Assembly: GCF_019038465.1 (NCBI RefSeq)
Contig: NZ_JAFKRH010000048.1
Location: 1-56,345 of the forward strand
Reading direction: 5' to 3'
Length of the DNA: 56,345 nucleotides
Origin: Synechococcus sp. CCY 0621
GTDB taxonomy: Bacteria; Cyanobacteriota; Cyanobacteriia; PCC-6307; Cyanobiaceae
Position 1 is the stretch's first letter, and each line of letters begins with the position of its first letter. The notes beneath the pieces are model-generated. The model searched no databases, was not told the DNA's origin, and saw only the letters and a list, made by a program, of their open reading frames with translations. Below, piece after piece: positions 11,101 through 16,507 of the stretch. Position numbers and translations under genes: made by a program.

Positions 11101-11205
11101 CGCCCGCACACAGCCCCCAGCCTGCTGGATCGGCGTCGACAACGTCAGAAAGCCCGGCGAGCATGGGGGTTCGTGGGCCCGTCCCACGCCACCCGCCCCG
11201 GATCC

Positions 11206-12633
11206 ATGGACAGCTTCGACGGCAAGATCATCGTGGGCAGCGAGGAGTGGTGCAGCTTCCCGGACGTCGGGCTGCCGGCGATCAAGGCGCGCGTCGATTC
11301 CGGAGCGGCCACCTCCGCCCTCCATGCCACCAACATCGTTCCCTTCGACCGCGATGGCCAGCCCTGGGTGAGCTTCGAGGTGCACCCGCTCCAGGGCGAT
11401 CGGGTCGTGGTGGTGCGCCACGAGGCTCCCGTGGTGGCCAAGCGCGAGGTGCGCAACACCACCGGCGTCCCGGAGAGCCGCTACGTGATCCGCGAGCGCC
11501 TGGTGCTCGGTGAGCAGAGCTGGGACGTGGAGCTGACCCTCGCCAACCGTGATGCCATGGGCTACCGGATGCTGCTCGGACGGCAGGCGATGGTGGGCCG
11601 GATCCTGGTGGACCCGGAGGGCAGCCATCACCTGCGCAGCCTCAGCGCCGAGGAGAGCCGGGCCCTCTATTCCCATGTCCGCAAGCGCGACGACGGCCTG
11701 CGGATCGTGCTGCTGGCCAGCAACCCCGATCTCTACAGCAACCGCCGCCTGATCGAGGCCGGGGAGGAACGCGGCCATCACATGCAGTTCCTCAACATCC
11801 GCCAGTGCTACATCCGCCTGGATCCCCGCAACCCCGAAGTCCACTACCGCGGCGGTGACGTGCTCGGCACGGTGGATGCGGTCATCCCGCGCATCCGCCC
11901 CAGCGTCACCTTCTACGGCTGCGCCGTGACACGGCAGTTCGAATCGATGGGGGTGCCGTCCCTCAACAGCGCCCACGCCATCACCGTCTCCCGCGACAAG
12001 CTCTTCGCCTCCCAGGAGTTCGTCCGCGCCGGGCTCAACACCCCCGTTACCGGTTTCGCCGATTCCCCCCTCGACACCGTGGACCTGATCCGCATGGTGG
12101 GCGGTGCCCCCCTGATCGTGAAGCTGCTGGAGGGTGCCCAGGGCAAGGGCGTCGTGCTCGCCGAGACCCAGAAGGCGGCCGAAAGCGTCATCAATGCGCT
12201 CCAGAGCCTCGACGCCAACCTGCTGGTGCAGGAGTTCATCAAGGAGGCCGGAGGCACGGATCTGCGCTGCTTCGTGGTCGGCGGCAAGGTGGTGGCCGCC
12301 ATCGAACGCCGGGCCGCCGAGGGGGAGTTCCGGGCCAACCTGCACCAGGGGGGATCGGCCCGGACCGTGCAGCTCGACGCCCCTGAAAAGCAGATGGCCA
12401 TCAAGGCCTGCAAGGCCCTGGGGCTCGATGTGGCTGGCGTCGACATCCTCCGCTCCCACCGTGGGCCCCTGTTGCTGGAGGTGAACTCCAGCCCCGGGCT
12501 CGAGGGGATCGAAGCGGCCACCGGCCTGGATCTGGCCGGAAAGATGATCCAGAAGCTGGAACGCAAGCTCGGCTGGGGCCGCCCCGCGGGCCAGGAGGCC
12601 GCTGCCGAAGCGTCAGCTCAGCTGCGGCACTGA
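11206..12633 (+). CDS. rimK: RimB-type protease domain fused to RimK glutamate ligase
   Basis: The N-terminal third (residues about 5-140) is the ATP-dependent zinc-protease/RimB domain. It has a retropepsin-like ARVDSGAATSALHA motif, in which D-S-G-A is the aspartic-protease signature, and MLLGRQAM. The rest is an ATP-grasp ligase of RimK type: LNSAHAITVSRDK, LIVKLLEGAQGKGV, VQEFIKEAGGTDLR for nucleotide binding and LLLEVNSSPGLEGIEAATG for the metal-binding end. RimK adds glutamates to a protein C-terminus (ribosomal protein S6 in E. coli), and RimB-like proteases trim them. Having both on one chain would give writing and trimming together. The frame opens earlier (GTG 11173), but ATG 11206 starts just before the protease domain. 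475 residues. Confidence 0.88.
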   Translation: MDSFDGKIIVGSEEWCSFPDVGLPAIKARVDSGAATSALHATNIVPFDRDGQPWVSFEVHPLQGDRVVVVRHEAPVVAKREVRNTTGVPESRYVIRERLVLGEQSWDVELTLANRDAMGYRMLLGRQAMVGRILVDPEGSHHLRSLSAEESRALYSHVRKRDDGLRIVLLASNPDLYSNRRLIEAGEERGHHMQFLNIRQCYIRLDPRNPEVHYRGGDVLGTVDAVIPRIRPSVTFYGCAVTRQFESMGVPSLNSAHAITVSRDKLFASQEFVRAGLNTPVTGFADSPLDTVDLIRMVGGAPLIVKLLEGAQGKGVVLAETQKAAESVINALQSLDANLLVQEFIKEAGGTDLRCFVVGGKVVAAIERRAAEGEFRANLHQGGSARTVQLDAPEKQMAIKACKALGLDVAGVDILRSHRGPLLLEVNSSPGLEGIEAATGLDLAGKMIQKLERKLGWGRPAGQEAAAEASAQLRH

Positions 12634-13009
12634 TCGAAGGCCTCTGCCCACGGCCCTGGCCATCGCGTTGCTCCAGGAGGCCCCCTGATCTCTGGCTCCA
12701 CCACGGACACGGCAACTGGGGCAGGGTCACCAGGCGCTCTCCCGGCGGAAGCAGGCACGAGGAGGAGTTCCGTGCCCTTGGCACCTGGATCTGTCGTCAT
12801 TCAGGCACATGTCGTGGCGGCGGCGATGCATAGCTCTTAAGTTCAATTCAATAAAGTTCTCCTTGCTGAGATCGGCGCGATCGACGTCTTTCTCGAACTG
12901 CTTTTTGCGCCATTAACTCATCCACCAGCTGATCCACTCACGGTTCCACTGTTGGACCATCTGATCGTCGTCCAGGCCATCACCAGTACACTCATCAGGG
13001 AGAAGGGAG
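12634..13009. other. Intergenic region, 376 bp, no gene found
   Basis: Between rimK and the COQ4-like gene the sequence drops in GC content around 12830-12910 (ttaagttcaattcaataaag), which suggests a promoter region for the downstream gene. Short open frames on both strands are Arg/Pro-rich and unconvincing. No hairpin terminator, tRNA or repeat was recognised. Confidence 0.5.
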
Positions 13010-13465
13010 ATGCTGTCCTCCATCCAGGTTGAAGGGGCCGATCGCCTCGTTGATGCTCTCGCCGCCTTGAAGGGCGACCCCAGCGACGCCATTCCCTTTG
13101 TGGTGCGATTGCTGGAGAATCCCTCCAGCCCCGTGGCCTTGCCGGGCATGATCGATCTCTATCGCCATGATTGCCTGCACCTGTTGCTGGCAAGAGGCTT
13201 CTCGCTTCACGATGAGGCGTTCGTGGTGGGCTTCACGATGGGCAACGACCTGCGAACAAACGCCCTCCATCTGGCCATCTTCAAGTTCTGCTCGATGCTG
13301 TTTTATCCCCGGCCCTATCGTTTCGACTGCAGCCATCTGCCTTGTTTTGATGCAGGCGTGGCCCTGGGAAGAAAAGCCAGACTGCGCAACATCAATCAGC
13401 TTGACTTCCGCGCCCACGAACACCAGCCCCTGCGCATCCTGCGGGAGTGGATCGGGATCGGCTGA
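13010..13465 (+). CDS. Small COQ4-like protein with HDxxH-x11-E zinc signature
   Basis: This 151-residue protein contains YRHDCLHLLLARGFSLHDE. H53-D54-x-x-H57 is followed by exactly 11 residues and E69, the metal-ligand signature of COQ4 in ubiquinone biosynthesis. The preceding LPGMIDLYRHD and following AFVVGFTMGND also look COQ4-like. Four Cys are present. COQ4 proteins are usually longer (over 200 residues) and organise or catalyse a step on the quinone ring. Cyanobacteria make plastoquinone, so a role in quinone or other isoprenoid metabolism is only a guess. ATG 13010 follows AGAAGGGAG. The ABC ATPase gene follows 15 bases later. Confidence 0.65.
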   Translation: MLSSIQVEGADRLVDALAALKGDPSDAIPFVVRLLENPSSPVALPGMIDLYRHDCLHLLLARGFSLHDEAFVVGFTMGNDLRTNALHLAIFKFCSMLFYPRPYRFDCSHLPCFDAGVALGRKARLRNINQLDFRAHEHQPLRILREWIGIG

Positions 13466-13480: not shown

Positions 13481-14287
13481 ATGATGGCCTCCATGCCCAA
13501 CGCGACCCCTTACCTGGAGCTCCAGTCTGTCGAGGTCTGGCTGGGACCCCGGCGGGTGTTCGACGACCTCACCCTGCGCCTTCACCCGGGAGAGCACACC
13601 GTGGTGCTGGGCCCCAACGGTTCCGGCAAGAGCTCGCTGGTGAAGCTGCTCAGCCGTGAGCTCTATCCCGTGGTCAAGCCCGGCTCCCTGCTGCGGATCT
13701 TCGGCAGCGCAACGGTGAATCTCTGGGAGCTGCGCGGCCGCATCGGCCTGGTGTCCCAGGACCTGCAGGCCGCCTACGTCGGCCGGGTGCCTGCCGCCGA
13801 CGTGGTGCTCTCCGGCTTCTTCGGCTCGGTGGGCATCGGCCGCAGCCAGGTGGCCACCGCCGCCCAGCACCGGCGGGTGGCGGAGCTGATGGAGCAGCTG
13901 GGCCTGGCCGATCTGGCGCAGCGTCCCTACGTTCAGCTCTCCGACGGCCAGCGGCGTCGCCTGCTGCTGGCCAGGGCCCTGGTGCACGGGCCCGAGGTGC
14001 TGGTGCTGGATGAACCCACCAACGGGCTCGACCTCAAGGCGAAACACCAGCTGCTGGCGATCCTGCGCGATCTGGCCCGTACCGGCACCACCCTGCTGTT
14101 GGTGACCCACCAGATCGAGGCGATCCTGCCCGAGATCAGCCGTTGCGTGCTGCTGCGTGAGGGGAAAGTGGTGGGCGACGGCCCCAGCGACGCCCTGCTG
14201 CAGGACGCCCCCCTCAGCGCCCTGTTCGCCACCCCCTTGCGGGTGTGCGAGGCGAACGGCTACCGCCAGGTGCTGCCGGCGGCTTGA
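13481..14287 (+). CDS. ABC transporter ATP-binding protein
   Basis: The 268-residue ATPase has Walker A GPNGSGKSS near residue 44, a Q-loop (GLVSQDLQA), a signature motif in the variant form LSDGQRRRLLLARAL instead of LSGGQ, Walker B VLVLDEPTNGLD, and the switch His in LLVTHQIEAI. It resembles the YlmA/ModF/iron-type stand-alone ATPases rather than a known importer set. No permease or binding-protein gene is adjacent. The mscS gene starts 19 bases downstream, so they may share a transcript. ATGs at 13481, 13484 and 13493 are all possible starts. Confidence 0.85.
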   Translation: MMASMPNATPYLELQSVEVWLGPRRVFDDLTLRLHPGEHTVVLGPNGSGKSSLVKLLSRELYPVVKPGSLLRIFGSATVNLWELRGRIGLVSQDLQAAYVGRVPAADVVLSGFFGSVGIGRSQVATAAQHRRVAELMEQLGLADLAQRPYVQLSDGQRRRLLLARALVHGPEVLVLDEPTNGLDLKAKHQLLAILRDLARTGTTLLLVTHQIEAILPEISRCVLLREGKVVGDGPSDALLQDAPLSALFATPLRVCEANGYRQVLPAA

Positions 14288-14305: not shown

Positions 14306-16507
14306 ATGTGCCGTGGCTTCCGGGTGCCCCGTCTGATCCGTCTGCCCCGTCTGCTCCGACCGCTGCTGGCCTTCCTGCTCGCCTGCCTGCTGCCGCTGGC
14401 GGGCCTCGCCGGCCAGGTGTCCGACCCCCCCGCCCTGGGTCGGAACACCTACGTGCCCCTGGAGAGCCAACCGTTCCATGGCCAGCTGCTGGATCTGAAG
14501 CAGCAATGGACCGATGCGCCCCTCAACCAGGTGGTGGGGGACAGCCCGCGGGCCACCCTGCTCAACTTCTATGTGGTGATGGCACAGGTGAGCCGCGACA
14601 TCGCCCGGATCGAAGCCAGGGCGGCGGCGACACCCGGGCTGTTCTGGTCGCGTGCGGTGCGGAATGAACTGGAGCTGATCGACAGCTACTTCGCCGAAGC
14701 GGTGAAGGCCCTCGATGTGTCAGAGATTCCCCAGAGCATCCGGGCGGATTTCGCCGATGAATATGCCCTCAAGCTCAAGGTGATTCTTGACTACGTCTTC
14801 ACCCACAGCCGCAAGCCTTTCGAGATTCCTGATGCGGCTGGGATGAAGGCTCTGAACGAGGGACGGGTGAACCCCAGCGCCAGCTGGACCATCCCGGGCA
14901 CCTCCATCACCCTGACTGATGAGGGGGCCGAAGGGGGCCGTGATCGCGGCTACCGGTTCTCCGCCTTCACTGTGGCCCAGATCCCCAGCCTCTACGAGGA
15001 GATCAGGGATCAGCGGGCGCCCTCCGCCGGCGCTTCCAGCCTGCTGACGCCGGCCATCTATGACGCCTTCAGCCTCAGGCCCGGCCATATCCTGCCGCCC
15101 AAGTGGTACCTGGGCATTCCAGGGGGCTTCCGCCGCAACGTGCTGGAGGCCCATCTCTGGGACCAGACCCTGTTCCAGGTCCTGCTGGGCCTGGTGTTGT
15201 TGGCGGCCTTCGCGTTCGTTCAGTTCCGGCTGGTGCTGACCCTGCTGGGCACCTATCGAATGACCAAACGGGCGGCCAGCCAACCACTCACCCCCATGGT
15301 GATCTGGCGCGTCGACAACATCGCCTGGCACCGGGTGCTGCTGGCGGGGGTCGCCCTGCCCATCACCCGGCTGGTGGAACTGCTGCTCGACCACTACGTC
15401 AACGTCACCGGCGTGCCCTTGCAGGTGCTGATGTACCTGCTCTACACGCTCTATTTCTGCTGGGCGGGGTTGTTCAGTTTCTTCCTGATGGAGGCCCTCG
15501 GCCGCAGCCTGGCCGAGTGGATCACGATTCTGCGCGGACGGCGCAACGCCCTGCAGCTGAGCCGCGTCAGCAATCTGGTGATGCCGGTCTGCCGGGTGCT
15601 GGGGGCCATCATCGGCGTCTCCCTGATGTACCGGCTGCTGATCCTGCTGGGCCTGCCGGGCTCCACCGTGCTGGCCTTTTCCGCCGTTCCCGGCCTGGCC
15701 ATCGGCCTCGGGGCCTCGAAGTTGCTGGGCAACCTGTTTGCCGGTCTGTCGATCCAGACCGACCGTCCCCTGCGGGTGGGGGAGTTCTGCCGCATAGGCA
15801 GCAATCTGGGTTACGTCACCAAGATCGGCCTGCGCTCCCTGGAGCTGCAGACCCACGAGAGCCGCATCACCATCCCCAACTCGGTTGTCGACGAGGAGAC
15901 CATCGTCAACTACTCCCTGCGTTCGGACCAGGCGGAGGATGCGGTGCTGCATGTGTTCGAGTTGCACCTTCCCCTGCCAGCCGATCTCACCCCCGATCAG
16001 CTGGACGACCTGGTGCATTACGGCCGCTTGTATCTCACCGAGCTTCCGGGTCTGTGCGCCGCCCAGGTGTTCCTCGACCAGGACGCGGGCGATGGGGAGT
16101 TACTGCTGCGCTGCTGCGGAGAGATCCAGGCCCCCAACTGGACCGACTACCTCACCTTGCGGGAAGCGGTCCTGTTGCGTCTGCGGCAGATCATGGATCA
16201 GGTGATCCGCTCCCGCATGGTGATCGGCGTGGCCTATGACACCAGCCCCGAACAGCTGCAGCGCATCCCGGAACTGATCGCCTCGCTGTTCGCGCGCGAG
16301 CCTCTGGCGGCCTTCCGGGCCTGTCGCCTGATGGCCATCAGCGACTTCAGCTACGACTTCACCTACGACTACCGCTCCGCCCAGCCCACCTACGCGGCGT
16401 TCAAAGATGAGGTGGCCCGCCTCAACCGGGCCCTGCTGGCCCTGTTCGCCGCCGAGGGGATCGAGATCCCCTACCCCACCCAGGCGGAGGTCCAGATCGA
16501 TGCCTGA
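14306..16507 (+). CDS. MscS-family mechanosensitive channel, large form
   Basis: The 733-residue protein has a signal-like hydrophobic N-terminus (about 17-32), a periplasmic-type helical domain to residue 280, and then membrane helices near 285-305, 340-360, 375-400 and 430-480. The MscS pore and beta domain follow: AIGLGASKLLGNLFAGLSIQ, then RPLRVGEFCRIGSNLGYV and HESRITIPNSVV. A C-terminal cytoplasmic region runs to residue 733. It should release solutes at high membrane tension. Its TGA overlaps the next gene's ATG (ATGCCTGA), so the downstream protein is coupled. Confidence 0.88.
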   Translation: MCRGFRVPRLIRLPRLLRPLLAFLLACLLPLAGLAGQVSDPPALGRNTYVPLESQPFHGQLLDLKQQWTDAPLNQVVGDSPRATLLNFYVVMAQVSRDIARIEARAAATPGLFWSRAVRNELELIDSYFAEAVKALDVSEIPQSIRADFADEYALKLKVILDYVFTHSRKPFEIPDAAGMKALNEGRVNPSASWTIPGTSITLTDEGAEGGRDRGYRFSAFTVAQIPSLYEEIRDQRAPSAGASSLLTPAIYDAFSLRPGHILPPKWYLGIPGGFRRNVLEAHLWDQTLFQVLLGLVLLAAFAFVQFRLVLTLLGTYRMTKRAASQPLTPMVIWRVDNIAWHRVLLAGVALPITRLVELLLDHYVNVTGVPLQVLMYLLYTLYFCWAGLFSFFLMEALGRSLAEWITILRGRRNALQLSRVSNLVMPVCRVLGAIIGVSLMYRLLILLGLPGSTVLAFSAVPGLAIGLGASKLLGNLFAGLSIQTDRPLRVGEFCRIGSNLGYVTKIGLRSLELQTHESRITIPNSVVDEETIVNYSLRSDQAEDAVLHVFELHLPLPADLTPDQLDDLVHYGRLYLTELPGLCAAQVFLDQDAGDGELLLRCCGEIQAPNWTDYLTLREAVLLRLRQIMDQVIRSRMVIGVAYDTSPEQLQRIPELIASLFAREPLAAFRACRLMAISDFSYDFTYDYRSAQPTYAAFKDEVARLNRALLALFAAEGIEIPYPTQAEVQIDA

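Follow-up and report, generated by a model that had tools for sequence, protein, structure and literature searches.

What is the small protein encoded at 13010–13465 on the forward strand of a Synechococcus sp. CCY 0621 contig, which carries the metal-ligand motif of COQ4, a metal-dependent quinone-synthesis enzyme? The whole contig (NZ_JAFKRH010000048.1, 56,345 nt) is referred to here as the window. An earlier note on this DNA had pointed to a motif with exact COQ4 spacing in a 151-residue product, and the sequence bears this out: the ORF, with an ATG start, encodes 151 aa including H53-D54-C-L-H57-x11-E69, and the pattern HD-x2-H-x11-E occurs once among the 321 six-frame window ORFs of at least 60 aa. 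The codons of this presumed divalent-metal site, delimited from the sequence and its relatives, span 13166–13216 (+). Residue-shuffled copies of the 321 ORFs also produce the motif (0.205 per set), as do 128 of 200,000 shuffles of the protein itself, so that by itself the motif is only suggestive. We call the gene mini-Coq4, or mini for short.

The ORF is a real gene whose protein is under purifying selection. Relatives are found at 81% (L020), 71–73% (L021), and 66–67% (G083) identity, and against the first of these, which is from the same genus, Ka is 0.10 and Ks 0.64 in frame, as compared to 0.21 and 0.20 when the pair is read one base out of frame. The protein matches its own family profile, of which it is one row, at 2.2e-52. 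Across the family the four ligands are invariant in all 12 members of the first alignment, window included, and all four are kept in 64 of the 67 minis aligned later. The larger set includes proteins of 24 of the 40 viral contigs described below and was reduced from 68 to 67 by removal of one Streptomycetaceae plasmid row; five loci are excluded from the counts, one for an in-frame stop (L013) and four with ORF sets that hold no called mini (L156, L157, L159, and L160), with the window and L020 standing in for L159 and L160, and L014 for L157. The three exceptions (L149, L129, and a Chondrocystis plasmid copy) have each changed at least two of the four ligands. In L149 and L129 the ligand positions read RQ-H-H and QD-Y-E, and much of the family signature remains.

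The relation of the mini to Coq4 is visible only at the profile and fold level. Four true Coq4 (PF05019) genes lie on other contigs of the window's own genome, and BLASTP of the mini against a Coq4 from this genome gives no meaningful alignment; the mini also fails the curated PF05019 cut-off of 22.9 bits. Our Coq4 reference set (n = 34) joins those four proteins to 30 of the best class matches. The profile search against COQ4 that the earlier note had proposed gives a divided answer. The single window sequence scores −1.5 bits against the Coq4 profile built here, whereas hhalign of 67 minis against the 34 Coq4 proteins gives a score of 44.8 (P 1.6e-6 per single comparison, as for all hhalign P-values here; probability 90%) over 133 columns, compared to at most 23.8 for 60 column-shuffled controls and 15.5 for a reversed control. 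With the four ligand columns masked, the score is 32.2 (P 2e-4, probability 46%) over 40 C-terminal columns. Including two full-length intermediates in the comparison brings P to 1.6e-8. Earlier hhalign runs with fewer sequences gave P 4.3e-6 for 16 sequences together, 1.8e-4 for the short group, and 0.0012 for the window's four-member group, and a three-member mini group showed no relation to Coq4 (P 0.24). When the mini profile was run over 177,635 PDB sequences, the top match was the Coq4 structure 3msq_A at an E-value of only 1.3, followed by an unrelated hormone subunit at 2.

The alignment also defines what kind of relative this is. The motif is shared with exact spacing by the Coq4 proteins of PF05019, which include Alr8543 of Nostoc PCC 7120 (6e12), the Nostoc punctiforme protein 3msq, and human and yeast COQ4. 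Residues 12–151 of the mini (13043–13462, +) are co-linear with residues 84–217 of a 221-aa Coq4 in the alignment of 67 minis with 34 Coq4 proteins, right up to the C-terminus, and compared to the ∼220 residues of Coq4 the 151-aa window mini lacks the N-terminal ∼83. Because these first residues are missing and the PF05019 cut-off is failed, the mini is a short Coq4-like variant and not a member of PF05019. Unlike Coq4, the window mini and most non-viral minis have ENP-x-SP-x-x-LPG before the motif and DEAF-x-x-GF-x-MGN after it, each with variations, and in other cyanobacteria a separate small protein is encoded next door to the mini. The two intermediates, L121 (235 aa) and L122 (243 aa), combine Coq4 length with HD-x-FH-x-LLGFDTSYAGE and, after the motif, GF-T/I-x-GQN, near the GFTMGND of the minis. 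Over 36 full-length proteins, the mini profile scores 28.1 bits on L121 and 16.0 on L122, as compared to at most 5.3 on the other 34. Unlike the minis, both are full length, and the long branch (3.36) at the base of the minis does not include them.

Structure prediction, also proposed in the earlier note, places the window protein with Coq4 as well. An AlphaFold2 model built from 19 sequences, with no Coq4 among them, has a pLDDT of 73.8 and a pTM of 0.68; the other four models reach 50–63, and residues 1–13 and 26–46 lie under 50. Compared to 65 chains, this model is closest to 6e12 (Alr8543; Z 8.9 over 104 residues) and 3msq (Z 7.5 over 105 residues), on a scale where values under 8, or under ∼13 for helical bundles, may reflect a common arrangement. 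Only entries of these two structures exceed Z 5, and the next chain stands at 2.2; on this large gap, the mini is predicted to have the Coq4 fold. Foldseek E-values for the same model are 0.12–0.25. For the viral form, the model (pLDDT 88.7) ranks 6e12_B first, but at only Z 4.3 and level with photosystem I subunit L (Z 4.0); its Foldseek list contains no Coq4, which we take as neutral, and a search of viral structure predictions returned no convincing match. All told, the mini is almost certainly a relative of Coq4. The link to COQ4 drawn by the earlier note stands as kinship, from the profile–profile alignment outside the motif, the fold, and the ligands of 64 of 67 relatives, but the mini is not a full COQ4, given the missing N-terminal part and the failed PF05019 test.

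The family is unnamed and unannotated in Pfam, NCBIfam, PHROGs, and PADLOC. For the window mini there is no Pfam family at E-values up to 10, nor does the sequence, searched on its own, match anything in Pfam, NCBIfam, PHROGs, or the PDB sequences, and PADLOC matches neither the mini nor the upstream partner described below. As far as these collections go, the suggestion that this gene may lead to an undescribed activity holds up. A 12-member family profile matches 31 of 291 class genomes, in 22 of 130 genera; no fewer than three of these are something other than true short copies, as G255 and G392 are full-length Coq4-like proteins and G262 is a fragment, with G235 and G445 partial. Judged from these matches, roughly a tenth of sampled cyanobacteria would carry a short Coq4 relative. 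Among 201 genomes surveyed in the family-level group, 12 match the window protein (E up to 0.01), of which one, G181, has a long protein with a sub-threshold Coq4 match; within the genus, the 12 include 2 of 11 genomes listed, own included. Across the phylum, six of 146 sampled genomes have a match, again including the own genome, and the other five belong to the same class. Plasmids of Nostoc (E 9e-36), Streptomycetaceae (E 2e-25), and Chondrocystis (E 0.01) carry relatives, all annotated as hypothetical proteins. The mini is an accessory gene, with copies in phages and on plasmids as well. On the Streptomycetaceae plasmid, the gene next to the mini is not a second mini.

The immediate surroundings of the window copy are as the earlier note described them: the gene adjoins an ABC ATPase (13481–14287, +; domain search and congener comparison) followed in the same gene row by an MscS-type channel (14306–16507, +; MS_channel, PF00924, by Pfam). 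On the left lies a RimK-type ligase (11173–12633, +), and the leader between it and the mini (12634–13009) has a GC content of 0.59. A close relative of the ABC ATPase (E up to 1e-60) is present in nine of the 13 genomes searched in the genus, the window's own among them. Six of the nine (L185 and L187–L191) have the RimK, ABC, and MscS genes consecutively without a mini; in these the RimK gene adjoins the ABC gene and there is no room for the leader. The mini stands between RimK and ABC in the window and L186, and for L192 the stretch examined shows only the ABC gene. The mini has therefore been gained or lost within a conserved row, and because that row exists without it in six congeners, the ABC and MscS genes are poor guides to its function. 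On this empty-site comparison we set aside the ABC/mscS neighbourhood as a functional clue, contrary to the weight that the earlier note had placed on it; its observation that no quinone gene lies nearby holds for the three flanking genes scanned (RimK, ABC, and MscS). The ORF at 11173–12633 joins a RimB-type retropepsin-like domain (PF05618), at its N-terminus, to a RimK-type glutamate ligase, a glutamate-adding enzyme and a putative trimming protease in one chain; its NCBIfam RimB match is below the cut-off.

Elsewhere the mini has a recurring neighbour. We fetched 38 neighbourhoods, 34 of which have the mini in their ORF set, and by ORF clustering a small protein is encoded directly upstream on the same strand in 14 of the 34. 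Its hydropathy plot has three peaks in 13 cases and four in one; the three hydrophobic peaks suggest that it is probably a membrane protein. Counted from the first ATG of each mini, the two frames overlap by 13–22 bases in 11 of the 14. An alignment of the 14 defines an unnamed family of 75–126 aa ORFs with invariant SS-x3-A-x2-GG and D-x2-G-x2-RW; its best Pfam match is only E 0.031, and there is none among PDB sequences at E up to 10. A profile search puts the partner no more than 600 bases upstream of the mini at 19 of 41 places, which belong to 15 of the 291 genomes sampled. Of 21 genomes with the partner, 17 also match the mini profile (G262 with its fragment included), against 31 of 291 overall; 2.2 would be expected by simple proportion (Fisher p 1e-15, a value that ignores kinship). 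Ten of 29 listed partner matches have no mini directly downstream. Neither the window's genome (G000; E up to 0.001, anywhere in the genome) nor G005, of the window's own branch, has a partner match. The Chondrocystis plasmid copy has a mini frame that reads on into the beginning of a partner-like sequence, the remainder of which lies in another frame.

Two further linkages are narrower, and neither is seen beside the window mini. A xanthine/uracil-type permease gene, identified as PF00860 in two cases and by cluster in the rest, lies downstream of the mini in eight of the 34 loci, all in one clade (8 of its 9 rows); at L132 6894–8825, the same gene as L103, the mini and a PF00860 permease share one 643-residue frame. 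In three of the 34 (L134, L136, and L133), the mini comes third after genes for a PspA/IM30-like coiled coil and then an OmpA-domain protein, the genes overlapping or separated by small gaps, an assignment from Pfam on the two proteins of L134 only, where the PspA match is below the Pfam cut-off. None of the recurring neighbours that were identified names a quinone step.

The most unexpected setting is viral. Minis occur on 40 IMG/VR contigs (L022–L061) and in five of 50,697 phage records (S-TIM5 twice, S-TIM54, S-TIM61, and S-TIM66), mostly as proteins of 107–108 residues that are annotated as hypothetical and have no PHROG match below E 0.1. On 36 of the 40 contigs the mini has a gp45-type sliding clamp on one side and a gp44-type clamp loader on the other, flanks that were assigned with Pfam and PHROGs for L023 and traced elsewhere by tblastn; the other four contigs end too close to the mini to show both sides. 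This placement among phage core genes is a feature of these relatives, not of the window copy. A speD gene is close to the mini in 13 of the 40, and in S-TIM5 the mini is among small hypothetical genes near the record end, not at the clamp genes. The contigs presumably derive from cyanophages, since they resemble S-TIM5. Like cyanophage auxiliary metabolic genes, the mini is a bacterial-type gene found in S-TIM5-type isolates and in contigs with T4-type clamp genes; unlike them, its product is annotated only as a hypothetical protein and the contig hosts are putative. A quick tree with long branches, used for grouping only, joins the ten viral rows with weak support (68); they fall in a starred set that also contains bacterial copies from the window's taxonomic family. 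What emerges is a real, unannotated family of short Coq4-like proteins with an unexpected viral and partner-gene context.

Turning to function, cyanobacteria make plastoquinone, not ubiquinone. The earlier note had found a COQ4 signature odd in such an organism; it is not odd in itself, with PF05019 matched by 93 of 194 sampled class genomes and four times in the window's own. Because Coq4 is present in only these 93 and the mini is much rarer still, neither probably serves as a general plastoquinone step; a side branch or conditional modification is the likelier role. One paper (PMC5159609) mentions the route from 4-hydroxybenzoate to plastoquinone in these bacteria. As for Coq4 itself, a COQ4 reconstructed as an ancestor decarboxylates C1 in a Zn-dependent manner, and its ligand double mutants gave no product (PMC7615680); human COQ4 is described in a review of later work as an oxidative decarboxylase (PMC11495197), the substrate in these reactions being a prenylated 4-hydroxybenzoate. 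In crystals, Alr8543 binds Mg at the same motif, with a lipid lodged between its helices (PMC9774615). A Coq4 gene is noted in a marine Synechococcus lanthipeptide cluster, with nothing to show it to be of the short kind (PMC10783134). No description of a short Coq4 or of a phage Coq4 came up among the open-licence PMC papers that our search listed, which is not proof that none exists.

We infer the metal binding, membrane association, chemistry, substrate, and transfer of the mini from this framework. By homology to Coq4, it should hold metal and work at a membrane surface, and the likeliest reading, to which we give about an even chance, is a membrane-associated metalloenzyme acting on a quinone-like lipid. 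The mini would be a compact Coq4 relative that keeps the metal-carrying C-terminal part of the fold but not the first ∼83 residues, and in it H53, D54, H57, and E69 would bind one or two divalent metal ions at the membrane surface. The metal would be used on a hydrophobic, carboxylated or phenolic substrate of quinone or prenylated type, on the model of COQ4 acting on the C1 carboxylate of a coenzyme Q precursor, and in those cyanobacteria that have it, the upstream partner may replace the N-terminal part of Coq4 in anchoring the protein at the membrane and positioning the substrate. These elements are not equally secure: the mini probably binds metal in the cell, we lean somewhat towards an enzyme over a scaffold, and a quinone-type or prenylated substrate is a tentative choice that may well prove wrong. 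More speculative still is a split minimal Coq4, in which a catalytic metal half and the separate small membrane protein encoded upstream in an overlapping frame, as replacement for the N-terminal half, jointly modify a cyanobacterial quinone-type or prenylated membrane compound, the catalytic half having been taken up by T4-like cyanophages to change the host quinone/isoprenoid pool; a mini encoded between clamp and clamp loader would then be made with the replication proteins. Against the metalloenzyme reading stand the single-sequence score and the lack of any Pfam hit, the weak sub-group alignments, a middling model with Foldseek E-values of 0.12–0.25, the low Z of the better viral model, the absence of the partner from the window's branch, and identified neighbours of which none names a quinone step.

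The strongest competitor is a non-catalytic, metal-stabilized scaffold or lipid-binding adaptor, in which the Coq4 fold would gather partners or lipid at the membrane and the metal would keep the site folded. Coq4 has been proposed as an organizer of the CoQ complex (PMC11495197). The small upstream neighbour with its three hydrophobic peaks, the position after PspA/IM30-like and OmpA-domain proteins in three loci, and the company of replication genes rather than metabolic ones (speD apart) in viruses are all consistent with such a role. Yet a scaffold accounts less readily for the retention of all four ligands, the acidic D54 and E69 among them, in 64 of 67 relatives, or for three exceptions that each lose at least two, as expected of decaying or re-purposed copies; we consider it unlikely, if the best of the alternatives. 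An enzyme tied to the uptake of nucleobases or other small molecules rather than lipids is suggested by the downstream permease, once fused in frame, but this linkage may be a single event, being limited to one clade, and the permease is not among the clustered neighbours of the other 26 loci or beside the window mini, which makes the idea improbable.

Equally improbable, in our estimation, is a phage–host interaction factor, for host takeover or for protection against other phages, spread by phages or islands with the Coq4 fold re-used for binding. The clamp and clamp-loader placement in 36 of 40 contigs and the five phage records speak for it, as do a patchy occurrence within a conserved gene row and the low third-position GC of the window mini (0.75, compared to 0.87–0.91 in the three flanking genes). 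However, PADLOC has no match for the mini or its partner, only the mini matches viral pieces around the same-branch bacterial copies L154 and L155, and the pairing with the upstream partner is known here from bacteria, the partner search having covered bacterial genomes. That an unrelated helical protein carries the motif by chance, as some shuffled sequences do and as the lack of any single-sequence family match might suggest, is already largely refuted by the ligand conservation, the co-linear alignment to the C-terminus, the alignment that survives masking of the ligands, and fold matches that are clear for the two Coq4 structures alone, and we regard it as scarcely credible.

COQ4 chemistry has been assigned only recently, and a natural form without the N-terminal part offers a minimal system for metal binding and catalysis; to our knowledge, the role of each Coq4 half is open. 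As the family is unnamed and spread across several cyanobacterial families and phages, its function would bear on cyanobacterial quinone and isoprenoid chemistry, and perhaps also on what cyanophages do to infected cells. Two of the neighbourhoods contain further genes of possible interest. The Streptomycetaceae plasmid has an AarF/ABC1/UbiB kinase gene two genes on from the mini, on the opposite strand (L162 7962–10961; CP108401.1). A few kb from the short Coq4-like gene of L155, at about 12–14 kb, lie several ORFs that we take to resemble Nif11-type leader peptides.
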